Part shown: one piece after another, positions 14,322 to 18,827 of the stretch | How the letters are laid out: every line of letters starts with the position of its first letter | Numbering within the stretch: the stretch's first letter is position 1 | Source: Crocinitomicaceae bacterium | GTDB lineage: Bacteria > Bacteroidota > Bacteroidia > Flavobacteriales_D > Sanyastnellaceae | Assembly: GCA_002720375.1 (NCBI GenBank) | Contig: PBIE01000040.1 | Location: 1 to 53,133 of the forward strand | Length of the DNA stretch: 53,133 nt | Direction: 5' to 3' | Notes under the pieces: generated by a model | What the model was told of the DNA's origin: nothing | What the model saw: only the letters and a program-made list of their open reading frames with translations | Database searches by the model: none | Made by a program: the position numbers and the translations under genes

Positions 14322-15986
14322 TCAATCTAAGGGCCAACCGAATGTTCTGTGGCCCAAGTTGCCGGCTTTGTCCACGGCCCACACTCGAATCTGATTTCCA
14401 GGCTGAAGGATGTTGTCCCCGAGGAGGTGAACCAACACCCCTTTCTCCATGGCCAAGCGGAGCCATTGGTTCCCGCAACGCCCTTCCCAATGGTCAATCC
14501 CCGACAGGTCGTCCGTCACAGCAATGCGCAAAGTTTCCGACTCCACCATGGGCTCCCCCAGTACGGGAGCAGTGGTATCCGGTCGCACTTCAAACGTCCC
14601 AAACTGCTTGACTTTGAACCCGATCATGCCCCCCCTTTCATCGGAAACCCAAGTGCCGTCGACATCGCCCTTATCGTCGAGGGCACAGAGAACAAGAGGC
14701 TCCCCCGTCCCCTTCCATTGCTCGGGTGCTGGCACAGTCAATTGAAAGGCCGTTCGTGTCAAGCGAGCCTCAGACAAAACAGAGAATTGCCCAGATGAAT
14801 CATCTACCAATGTAATGGCCGCATCGGCATACAAGGCACCAGCTGGAATTTCGATGCCCATCCGTCCATACGTCAGGCGGTGGCGCCGTCTGTGGTCCAT
14901 CATGTCCTCTCCGCCCCAGGTTGAATCGAGCCGCATGCTGTCGCCTATAAGCAAAACGTTGGCCTGAGACATATTTCCAGCGAGATCCAGCACCGTCACC
15001 CCCAATTGGGCTGTGTCATCAGGCATCACTTCCAACGGCGTCATGTCACCGGTCAAATGATAGATGTCCAACCGGTTACCTGGCAACCGATGCAATCGAT
15101 GCACCCGTGCCCGTCGGTCCTGCCATGCGGCGATGTCCACGTGCGCCGAGACGTCTTTGTTGGTCGCGAAATCCAGCGTGTCCATCCGGTGGCGATAGAT
15201 GAGGCTGTCCTCCAGATAGACATCCACCCCATAGGGGCCATGTGTAAAGGGCGCACCGTCCAACTTGTCAAATGCCTCAACTCCAAGCCTAAAGGGACCC
15301 GCCACCTTAACAGACTCACCATAGGCTGGACTCCATCGAAACCGCTCCCGCACACCTTCCACCTCGCTCGAATCACATGGCAATACCCAAACGCCTCGAA
15401 ACTCAGGTGGTACATCATCTAGCGTGATGCCCTCCCCCATAAAAGTCCAGTGCAACGGATTGATGGGCCACTGGGTACGCTGGTCCCGAATCTCAAAATG
15501 AAGATGTGGCCCATAACTCCTGCCAGAATTGCCACTCCATGCAATGGTGTCACCCGCCTCAAACCGAAAGTCCTCGGAAGGAGAACCATCGAAGGCCCAA
15601 GACTCGGCGGCATACTGGGCCGCCTTCAACCATGCTTCAATGTCGGGGTGAAACGATGACAAGTGAGCATAAACTGTTGTCAACCCTTGGCCATCCAGGT
15701 ACAAGGCAAGACCGTAACCGCGGTCCGACACTTTGATTCTGCTGATTTGGCCAGACTGCGCTGCCAACACGGGAACACCCTCGACTCCACCTGTTCGAAT
15801 GTCCAGTCCTGTATGGAAGTGTCCTGTCCGGATTTCACCAAAATTGCCGCTGAACTGCAAGGGAATGGGCAAAGGGGAGTGCAGTGTATCCTGTGCCCAC
15901 ATTTGAATGAATGCAACCAACCATCCTCCCAAACAAAGCCATCTCCAGCGGTTTCCGCCTCGACTACCGTTCATACCCCATCTCAT
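14322..15986 (-). CDS. M23 family metallopeptidase (LytM-type endopeptidase)
   Basis: The 554-residue secreted protein would cut peptide cross-links in peptidoglycan. After a signal segment (WLCLGGWLVAFIQMWAQ) the M23 domain has its zinc ligands: His and Asp in GHFHTGLDIR and the HxH motif in HLHFEIRD, with the usual GYGLALYLDGQGLTTVYAHL between them. The long C-terminal region (about residues 200-554) is beta-rich and may hold Ig-like domains (VTVLDLAGNMSQANVLL, WAVDKAGNLGHR). In-frame ATGs at 15986 and 15974 are both possible starts. The gene is divergent from the zapA cluster; this fits cell-wall work at division, but that link is inference. Confidence 0.9.
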   Translation of the reverse strand: MRWGMNGSRGGNRWRWLCLGGWLVAFIQMWAQDTLHSPLPIPLQFSGNFGEIRTGHFHTGLDIRTGGVEGVPVLAAQSGQISRIKVSDRGYGLALYLDGQGLTTVYAHLSSFHPDIEAWLKAAQYAAESWAFDGSPSEDFRFEAGDTIAWSGNSGRSYGPHLHFEIRDQRTQWPINPLHWTFMGEGITLDDVPPEFRGVWVLPCDSSEVEGVRERFRWSPAYGESVKVAGPFRLGVEAFDKLDGAPFTHGPYGVDVYLEDSLIYRHRMDTLDFATNKDVSAHVDIAAWQDRRARVHRLHRLPGNRLDIYHLTGDMTPLEVMPDDTAQLGVTVLDLAGNMSQANVLLIGDSMRLDSTWGGEDMMDHRRRHRLTYGRMGIEIPAGALYADAAITLVDDSSGQFSVLSEARLTRTAFQLTVPAPEQWKGTGEPLVLCALDDKGDVDGTWVSDERGGMIGFKVKQFGTFEVRPDTTAPVLGEPMVESETLRIAVTDDLSGIDHWEGRCGNQWLRLAMEKGVLVHLLGDNILQPGNQIRVWAVDKAGNLGHRTFGWPLD

Positions 15987-16031
15987 GTTCGCAAATTACC
16001 CTTCCGTTTTCAGCCCCGGTCTTGTGCGATG

Positions 16032-16039
16032 TAAATTTG
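16032..16039 (+). promoter_or_regulatory. Candidate -7 box of the zapA operon
   Basis: TAAATTTG is an exact match to TAnnTTTG, 11 bases before the ATG at 16051. It supports 16051, rather than the upstream in-frame ATG at 15907, as the start of the first gene. A T-rich stretch (16006-16010) lies about 21 bases upstream but is not a clean -33 TTG. Confidence 0.45.
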
Positions 16040-16050
16040 AATTTGTGGAT

Positions 16051-16380
16051 ATGAACCAAACCTCGGAACAAGTACTCCTGAGCACCATGCTTCAGGAGAT
16101 TCGGGATAAGGCGGCCAAGCTCATCGAAGAGCGCAACCGTCTGATTGAGGAAAAACGCACCCTTGTGGATCAATTGGTTGCGCTTCAAACACGCGTAGCA
16201 GAGCAAGAGACGCAGCTGGCTCAACGCCAAGCCGAACCAGAACCACAACGCGCGATGACGAACACCTCCGACCCCATTGTCGGTGAACGCATCCGGGCCC
16301 TTGTTGAGGAAATTGACGCCTGCATCGCACTGATGCCCCACTCGCGCGACATGGCCAACGTAGAACTGCTTTCCGCATGA
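16051..16380 (+). CDS. Small coiled-coil protein encoded upstream of zapA
   Basis: The 109-residue soluble protein has a heptad-rich coiled coil (about residues 8-60; LIEERNRLIEEKRTLVDQLV) and a conserved C-terminal motif RIRALVEEIDACIALMP. A similar protein with an EIDKCIALL-like end is commonly encoded just before zapA in Bacteroidota. Its function is not established; by position and shape it could be a ZapB-like divisome partner (inference). ATG 16051 is chosen from the promoter box and from where conservation begins. Its stop overlaps the zapA start (ATGA). Confidence 0.75.
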   Translation: MNQTSEQVLLSTMLQEIRDKAAKLIEERNRLIEEKRTLVDQLVALQTRVAEQETQLAQRQAEPEPQRAMTNTSDPIVGERIRALVEEIDACIALMPHSRDMANVELLSA

Positions 16381-16706
16381 ACGAATCCTCCATACAAGTC
16401 ACCATTGCTGGACGGACCTACCCGCTGACCGTGGCGGATGGTGAAGCGATGCGCGTTCGAGAGGCAGCAGGAAAAATTGATGAACTTGTCCAGAGGTTTC
16501 AAAGAGACTACGGCGTGTCAGACCGCCAAGACCTCATTGCAATGGCCGCACTCCAGTTGCTCAGCGACACCCCCGCAGAAATGCAAAAGGAAACGCAAGA
16601 AGTGCATGTCATTCCATCGGAAGTCTTTGAAGGACTGGAGGAGGTGAGGTCCCTTTTGGCTCAAGCAGGCATGGCTCCAGAGGAGACAGGGGAACAAACC
16701 CCCTGA
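16377..16706 (+). CDS. zapA: Cell division protein ZapA
   Basis: ZapA binds FtsZ and bundles its filaments at the division ring. The 109-residue protein has the typical N-terminal strand pair ([20 protein letters not shown]), the helix [16 protein letters not shown], and the short motif [14 protein letters not shown]. Start and stop are both tightly packed: it overlaps the upstream coiled-coil gene by 4 bases and is followed after 4 bases by the shortened RNase Y homologue. Confidence 0.88.
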
Positions 16707-16710
16707 ATCC

Positions 16711-17328
16711 ATGGACCCCACGCATTACATCCTCGGCGGACTCGCCGGCCTTCTTCCCGGAGGCGCTGCCGCATATTCCATTCTAAACAGTGTGCTCAAA
16801 GGCAAAGCGCCTGCCATCATCAAAGAGGCTGAGCAAACAGGAGACCATATCAAGGAGAAGAAAATTCTCAAAGCCAAGGAAAAATTCCTCAAACTCAAGG
16901 AGGAACACAACAAAGAAATCAAGACGCGAATTGCCGAGGTTCAGTCGCTAGAAGACAAACCAAAAGAGCCCGATAAGGCCCAAGCTCAGGAAGCCAAATT
17001 GCAATCGGAAGCGTCCGGCATGACAGTCAAGTCTGACAAGGAAGAACTCAAAGAGCAGATTCTAGGCGATGCGCGAGCCATGGCTGCGCAACAAACGCAG
17101 GAAATTCAGGATGAAGCGCGAACCCGCGCCAACCAAGAGGCCAAGAAAATCGCCACCCAATCAAGTCGTGAACAGCGTGTCATGGTGGAGAGCGATCAAG
17201 TCAATGAAGAGATGGCCGATCAAATCAGCTTCAACATCTTGCAGCGAATTATGAACGCGATGACCTACCCTGGTCAGGTCAAGGTCACCGTCATCCTCGA
17301 GACACGGGCTGTGAGCGTCGCAAAATGA
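16711..17328 (+). CDS. RNase Y homologue lacking the KH and HD domains
   Basis: The 205-residue protein aligns by eye with both ends of ribonuclease Y but not with its middle. The N-terminus has the membrane helix (about residues 7-28) and the coiled-coil start [20 protein letters not shown]. The pre-KH segment [17 protein letters not shown] is present near residues 135-150. It then jumps directly to the RNase Y C-terminus ([15 protein letters not shown], then [20 protein letters not shown]). About 300 residues, including KH and the HD metal site, are missing, so it cannot be a ribonuclease. The coiled coil is also shortened. The frame is intact and coupled to the next gene by ATGA. It may be a scaffold protein, a decaying gene or an assembly deletion. 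Confidence 0.8.
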
Positions 17329-18827
17329 GTGAAAATAGAGACGGCACTTTCTCGCGCTCTGTGCAGTGGCAAACCCTAAATGTTGGGGTTCAGATTGTCA
17401 TTCAACTGGCTTTTGTTCGCTTTTTGGGGGAAATACTCACACCGTCCGAGTGGGGCTTGGTCGGCGTTGTATTGGGCTTTGCTGGACTCCTAGAAATATT
17501 TGCCCAACTCGGTGTAGGCCCATCGCTGATTCAGCGCAAAGATTTAACGCGAAAACAAGTATCAGCCGCATTCTGGTTCTCCTTGTTTCAGGGGATGGCC
17601 TTCTGTGCTTTGGTCTACTTCACTGCTCCCAGCATCGCAAAGTGGTTTGAGAAGCCCGACATGGAGCCTGTCATGCGGTGGGTTGCCTTCAGCTTCTTGA
17701 TTGCCTCTGTGGCACTGGTCCCCCGGTCGATGCTGATTCGACGCATGGACTTTCGCAGCCTCTTCTGGTCCTCCTTGATTGCCATGGGTTTGGGTACGGG
17801 AGCATTCGGTATCTGGGCCGCCTCTGCTGGCTGGGGGGTTTACGCTTACATCGGCGCCTTGCTCGTTCAAAACGTTCTGCTTGGCATCAACTACTGGGGT
17901 CGCGCAGGATTGCGCGTCTCTCTTTTCCCTCAGTTTCGCGAAGCCCGGTCCCTTTTGCGGTATGGTGCCACGAGCACGGTGTTTAACTTTTTGAATTACT
18001 CCGCTTCCAAACTCGACCTGCTGGTGTTGGACAAATTCCTTCCCATTGCCAAAGACGCGATGGTCGGATTGTATGAACGAAGCGTATATATAATGAACAC
18101 CCCTGTCACAGTTCTGGGCAAACTGTCAGACAGCGTCCTCTTCAGCGGCATGAGCGGGGTTCAAGACGAACAACAGAGGCTTCGCCAGATATTTTATGGC
18201 GGAGTATACGTGGTGACCACGCTGGTGCTACCCGGAATCGTCCTGCTGGAGCTGTTTATGAAGGACGTCGTGCTCATCTTGGTGGGAACGAAACTACTCA
18301 GCGTTGTCCCCTATGCCCGCATTCTCGTTTTGGCCATTCTGTTTCGCAGCTGGATCAAAGTGTGCGACGCCGTGGTGCGCGCAGTCGATGCCATTGCGCC
18401 GGCCTCTGCAATTAAAGCCTGCTTCTGCCTTATGGTCGGATGTTCAGCTTGGTTAGGGGCAACCACAGAACTAAGCGCGCTGTGCATCGGCATGGTGGTG
18501 GCCACAACCATTCAAGCCATCGCCATGCTTATTTTGACGCAGCGGCACGTTCAATTCGAATGGTCCATGCTGCTTCGCCTCGTGCTTCCCGGCCTTCGCG
18601 CGGCATTGGCCGCAATGCTCGGGGCCACACCGGCGATGCTCTTTCACGAACATCTGAACTGGGCTTTGCACTTCCTTTTGGGCCTGACGGGCATCGGCTT
18701 TACGGTCATCGCAGCGTCTTGGCTTCGACCACGGTGGTTTTGCGTGGGCGACTTTAACCTGCTTGCACAAATTGCACAAAGACTGCCTTCCAGCACACTC
18801 AAAACCCGCTGGTCTGACAGGGTATAA
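17325..18827 (+). CDS. Oligosaccharide flippase / polysaccharide biosynthesis protein (Wzx, MOP superfamily)
   Basis: The 500-residue protein is almost entirely hydrophobic, with about 12-14 membrane segments. Its N-terminal pattern ([20 protein letters not shown], then [20 protein letters not shown]) is typical of Wzx-type lipid-linked sugar flippases of the lipopolysaccharide biosynthesis group. The motif [21 protein letters not shown] and [18 protein letters not shown] match the central region. It would move lipid-linked glycans across the inner membrane. Its ATG overlaps the stop of the RNase Y-like gene, so it is probably translated from the zapA transcript. Confidence 0.88.

Follow-up and report, generated by a model that had tools for sequence, protein, structure and literature searches.

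The open reading frame that follows zapA in the draft genome of a Crocinitomicaceae bacterium (G000) is best read as a dying rny, the gene for RNase Y, in a genus that includes members without rny. It is likely that this gene is degenerate, with its core lost, its remainder drifting, its frame kept by overlap with the next gene, and mRNA turnover left to RNase E/G and PNPase. The window, the whole stretch of 53,133 nucleotides that was analysed, is contig C40 of an assembly of 1,563,190 bases in 56 contigs, which is 64.7% complete. The locus reads, in order, an M23-peptidase-like ORF on the minus strand, a 157-aa coiled-coil-like ORF, zapA, the 205-codon frame, a flippase-like ORF, a 226-aa ORF and serC; all names other than zapA are ones that we take from the character of the sequences. 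The features are as follows.

16377–16706, plus strand: zapA (cell division protein ZapA), upstream neighbour of the rny remnant (ORF; PF05164, E 9.8e-15)
16711–17328, plus strand: remnant of rny, an open frame of 205 codons without the catalytic core (ORF, TIGR03319, PF12072, alignment)
16726–16800, plus strand: membrane-helix segment, residues 6–30 (hydropathy; boundaries by eye)
16801–16956, plus strand: first coiled-coil segment kept, residues 31–82 (alignment)
16956–16957, plus strand: join at deletion 1, where G001 has 39 further coiled-coil codons (117 nt) (alignment)
16957–17151, plus strand: second coiled-coil and pre-KH segment kept, residues 83–147 (alignment)
17151–17152, plus strand: join at deletion 2, where G001 has 269 further codons (807 nt), KH and HD among them (alignment)
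17152–17325, plus strand: retained C-terminal segment, last 58 residues (alignment)
17325–17328, plus strand: ATGA overlap of the rny stop TGA and the start ATG of the next ORF (junctions read)
17325–18827, plus strand: membrane protein of 500 aa, presumably flippase-like by its sequence character (ORF; located behind rny or zapA in those genus loci that were read)

The truncated RNase Y frame

The frame runs from ATG to TGA and encodes 205 residues with no internal stop. Its N-terminal region is recognised by PF12072 (RNase_Y_N), which matches residues 31–83 with E 2.3e-8 and 34.2 bits against a cut-off of 32. TIGR03319 matches in two pieces that lie in one frame, at model positions 30–142 and 454–514 of 514; their scores of 52.9 and 17.7 bits fall short of the curated cut-off of 454.35, which is set for the whole protein, and the frame thus does not reach the threshold for RNase Y. 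With the closest relative, G001, as reference, the remnant aligns end to end with RNase Y except for two missing blocks, one of 39 codons after Asp82 in the coiled coil and one of 269 codons after Ile147. The KH RNA-binding domain and the HD domain with its catalytic His-Asp lie inside the larger block and are both absent from the remnant; they were placed there by what we take to be their motifs, GRIIGREGRNIRALE and HDIGK. Identity to G001 at 157 of the 205 residues excludes a chance resemblance to RNase Y, and descent is clear.

The remnant shares with RNase Y its locus between zapA and the flippase-like gene, its start, its membrane helix, the ends of its coiled coil and the C-terminal 58 residues. 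It differs in having neither KH nor HD and a shortened coil, so that it cannot be an endonuclease, and in protein-level signs of relaxed selection. The membrane helix is weakened as well, with a best 19-aa hydropathy of 1.55 compared with 1.89–2.26 in the four relatives computed. The gene lies after zapA as in the nine full-length relatives of its genus, 4 nt behind the zapA stop, and overlaps the next ORF as ATGA. The 157-aa ORF (15907–16380) and zapA also overlap as ATGA, and the genes follow closely on one another as far as the flippase-like gene; a pattern scan of the plus strand of 15900–17700 returned no promoter-like or terminator-like site.

A preliminary description of this DNA had portrayed an intact 205-residue frame made of RNase Y ends, without KH and HD, with a shortened coil and close neighbours on both sides, and each of these points stands, as does its statement that rny follows zapA, which is the gene order in this genus. 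It had placed the join near 17160 and given the tail 55 residues; a join and a kept tail exist, the former at 17151 and the latter of 58 residues in the alignment with G001. No RNase Y without KH and HD is reported in the titles, abstract openings and passages (of PMC3071783 and PMC9775385) covered among open-licence PubMed Central papers.

Sequence change in the retained parts

Constraint on the remnant was judged from changes at sites where the other genus members do not vary, a test chosen because synonymous sites are saturated. The alignments held only G000 and the nine full-length relatives (G015 and G016 were excluded), and sites gapped in any genome were dropped; they comprised ten genomes for up157, zapA, flippase and rny, nine for serA, DUF1015, hyp226, serC and M23, and six for CBM9. 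G000 has changed 23 of 138 invariant sites in rny, compared with 54 of 1610 in nine neighbouring genes pooled (odds ratio 5.8, p 5e-9). Seven of the nine controls taken singly differ from rny at p < 0.01, while hyp226 (2/35, p 0.11) and up157 (3/44, p 0.14) do not differ significantly. For rny in other genomes the count is 0/115 in G001, and the next highest is 9/124 in G013 (7.3%, against 16.7% in G000); the single-genome maxima in control genes are 10.9% (G007, up157) and 10.6% (G013, flippase). All four regions of the remnant are hit (1/10, 5/38, 8/38 and 9/52).

The protein branch of G000 relative to the rest of the tree is 0.48 for rny and 0.05–0.25 for the nine controls, the highest value of the ten stretches; in absolute length the rny branch (0.321) is shorter than those of hyp226 (0.610), up157 (0.515) and DUF1015 (0.335). 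The retained part carries 36 residues found only in G000, compared with 1–16 such residues in each of the nine relatives (five in G001). Among the changes are prolines at residues 16, 34, 84 and 87, positions without proline in all nine relatives; Pro16 lies in the membrane helix, and Pro84 and Pro87 just after the coil join left by deletion 1. The 23 invariant-site changes are not conservative (mean BLOSUM62 -0.43, against -0.21 for random missense changes). At second codon positions where outgroups agree, 17 changes fall on the G000 branch and none on that of G001. Third positions hold 99 of the 143 differences between G000 and G001. Taken with the open frame and the codon-model result below, this pattern fits long constraint followed by a recent relaxed phase.

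A check for purifying selection had been proposed in the preliminary description, and its outcome is divided. Under the codon model, omega = 1 is rejected for the G000 branch as a whole (lnL -3550.27 vs -3528.31), and the protein-level tests show relaxed selection. The G000 omega of 0.056 is not significantly above that of the rest of the tree (-3528.31 vs -3528.89), with synonymous sites saturated. Per-branch dN/dS was dropped as the main test, since synonymous distances saturate and omega on G000 is unreliable. Neutral survival of the frame was simulated for 25 changes, the estimated excess, at 0, 0.05 and 0.1 indels per substitution, and came to 25, 4 and 1%; the corresponding values are 44, 18 and 7% for 15 changes and 13, 1 and 0% for 36. 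Two marks of a pseudogene are thus present, namely loss of needed domains while relatives are intact and, at the protein level, relaxed selection on the remainder, to which the codon model with its saturated synonymous sites adds no significant rise in omega. The third, a frameshift or premature stop, is absent.

An open frame could also belong to a functional protein, a non-catalytic membrane scaffold in which the anchor, partial coil and partial C-terminal region organise decay proteins such as PNPase and cut nothing. The retained anchor, coil and C-terminal parts are those proposed to dimerise RNase Y. For such a protein speak the frame that stayed open despite two in-frame losses, the whole-branch omega below 1 and the rarity with which a neutral frame survives once indels are allowed. 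In Bacillus subtilis, a passage of PMC9775385 relates, earlier two-hybrid work saw no self-interaction of the C-terminal region of RNase Y. A scaffold is hard to reconcile with a branch ratio that is the highest of the ten stretches, with invariant-site changes in every region, which leave the retained ends not specially conserved, and with four new prolines, two of them just after the coil join. Structure prediction points the same way: AlphaFold, given the remnant with nine relatives, returned a poor model (mean pLDDT 59.8) with predicted helices at 4–81, 90–150 and 166–183, a break at 82–89, and no strands, none at the C-terminus either. Among the 114 family assemblies, moreover, the other partial matches seem to be due to contig ends or, for G061, to one-base errors. 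Functional scaffolding is thus unlikely. Of the two readings that the preliminary description had left side by side, scaffold or dying gene, the latter is better supported, by accelerated change, the prolines and relatives whose rny is intact or absent, and the former has found little that speaks positively for it. It is improbable that RNase Y is reducible, once RNase E/G has taken over cleavage, to a non-catalytic membrane-bound coiled-coil protein that goes on serving as a platform for RNA decay; if true, this broader proposal would describe a cell midway between reliance on RNase Y and reliance on RNase E.

Distribution of rny in the genus, family and order

The genus is represented by 17 assemblies including G000, and 12 of them, G000 among these, match the short protein used as query. 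Nine relatives carry a full-length rny at the same place, with one RNase Y match in each, and in G015 and G016 the gene is cut by contig ends. The remaining five (G003, G005, G008, G009 and G012) show no match to the short protein. In G005, which is 96% complete, and in G003, zapA runs into the start of the next gene, with overlaps of 4 and 8 nt and no rny in between, and those two assemblies have no RNase Y match elsewhere either. Neither zapA nor the flippase-like gene was found in G008, G009 and G012. The comparison with relatives suggested in the preliminary description has thus yielded nine full-length genes, two cut ones, two rny-less genomes and no parallel short form among them. In G005, the flippase-like frame and the ORF of the 226-aa type that follows it form one 648-aa frame (L106, 6137–8083), a possible fusion or frame error.

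The remnant-bearing genome shares with G005 and G003 the genus, the gene order and the lack of RNase Y, and RNase E/G is found in G005. It differs from them in that there rny is fully gone, zapA overlapping the next start directly, and in that the fragmented G003 yielded no RNase E/G. Because the closest relative, G001, is intact, the remnant looks like an event separate from the other losses of rny, as far as the sequences tell.

At the family level the RNase Y model is matched in 106 of 114 assemblies (G000 included), and five of the eight that do not match belong to this genus. In a sample of the order limited to assemblies with completeness of 90% or more and contamination of 5% or less, 229 of 238 match the model, two of them only weakly (G207, E 3.0e-4, and G053, E 6.7e-4); among the matches listed are weak or partial cases such as G153, G222 and G207. 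The nine order assemblies without an RNase Y match include all three sampled assemblies of genus g64. Assemblies G043, G299, G300 and G301 have no RNase Y match at 100, 92, 97 and 96% completeness. It is probable that rny has been lost more than once in the order.

Several candidates for a second short form were set aside. The gene of G061 is full-length, and its frame is broken by four one-base insertions relative to G060 (93% identical DNA), which is attributed to sequencing error; the broken frame lies at about 3748–5253 of L132 (G061:C3:28000-37000). Other partial family matches (G015, G016, G075, G078, G080, G088, G102, G117 and G125) have coordinates that suggest contig ends. A search of genome contigs with the short protein gave no relatives from 44 candidate stretches, and an alignment of the flippase yielded 13 loci, of which 12 are genus contigs already in the set (taken as the same) and one is unrelated.

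The lack of a third of the genome leaves room for a different account, in which the native copy has decayed beside a second intact rny, duplicated or acquired, and RNase Y activity is kept. A spare rny would explain relaxed selection, and a copy in the missing part of the assembly may count against the decay reading. The preliminary description had called for a search for a second full-length rny; TIGR03319 over the 1.56 Mb of G000 matched only the ORF at 16711–17328 in this 64.7%-complete assembly. The nine full-length relatives have one match each, and G005, nearly complete, has none. A second copy is quite improbable. Less credible still is an assembly artefact, in which a normal full-length rny lost about 0.9 kb to the assembler: the draft is fragmented and incomplete, but the gaps are two, separate and in frame, the repeat at the edges is only 7 nt in the closest relative, and what remains around the gaps is abnormal too, with its 36 residues that all nine relatives lack, an effect that dropping a segment would not have. 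The doubt that the preliminary description had cast on a single assembly deletion was well placed.

The truncation is probably a real change and not a slip of assembly, given the excess of invariant-site changes, the four new prolines and the in-frame repeat in G001. In that genome both edges of deletion 2 carry the 7-nt direct repeat CATCCAG, read in one frame, and the window goes on as a single CATCCAG with later changes would lead one to expect. The repeat is that of a present-day relative, G001, and may differ from the ancestral sequence. Across the nine relatives, two share all 7 nt (G001 and G004), three share 6 and four only 4. Deletion between short repeats is a plausible cause of the 807-nt loss. 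For the dying gene the course of events would be as follows. In an ancestor, zapA and the flippase-like gene would have flanked a full-length RNase Y gene; the KH–HD core would have been lost, perhaps when short direct repeats in the same frame recombined, and the coiled coil would have been shortened by a further 117 nt, both losses being in frame. The product would then have had no cutting domain, and its remaining parts would have drifted under relaxed selection.

The open frame and the enzymes of mRNA decay

The rny stop and the next start overlap as ATGA in all 11 genus junctions read, a conserved overlap of the kind expected of a coupled pair. In the rny-less G005 and G003, it is the zapA stop that the start of the next gene overlaps. 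Beyond the genus such an overlap is not the rule, and G025 and G020 have short gaps. In Haloferax volcanii, according to passages of PMC6728339, premature stops in the upstream gene abolished downstream translation in nine of nine overlapping or near-overlapping pairs; in Escherichia coli, the same passages indicate, the effects of upstream stops were not uniform. The flippase-like ORF is possibly coupled in translation to the frame upstream of it. Its translation would need ribosomes to pass through the remnant, which is the probable reason for the open frame; selection acting on read-through and not on the protein would suffice. To the preliminary description the intact frame had indicated function or a real gene; coupling to the next gene could explain the openness as well. 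Compared with decaying operon genes that remain in frame ahead of ATGA-overlapped genes, the remnant has likewise lost its catalytic parts, changed at an accelerated rate and kept its frame; it differs in that its coupling is deduced from the conserved overlap and in that it carries no stop or frameshift. That absence, together with the low neutral survival of the frame, may mean that the protein itself is under selection, which would count against decay.

RNase E/G is found in 15 of the 17 genus assemblies, G000 and G005 included, and PNPase in 16, G000 included. The RNase J model (TIGR00649) matches none of the 17, and the same model matches 13 of 14 control genomes. Parts of PMC8266666 describe rny as quasi-essential in B. 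subtilis, and in that species RNase E can replace RNase Y (passages of PMC9775385 and PMC8266666). In the cell with the rny remnant, RNase E/G may have taken over, and mRNA turnover would probably proceed by RNase E/G with PNPase.

The find is modest and mostly explained. It offers a testable reason for a dead gene to stay in frame, namely that the next gene starts inside its stop codon. Within one genus, rny is held intact, decaying and gone, all at the same place and with RNase E/G in most of the assemblies, which makes a natural series for how a cell gives up a main enzyme of mRNA decay.
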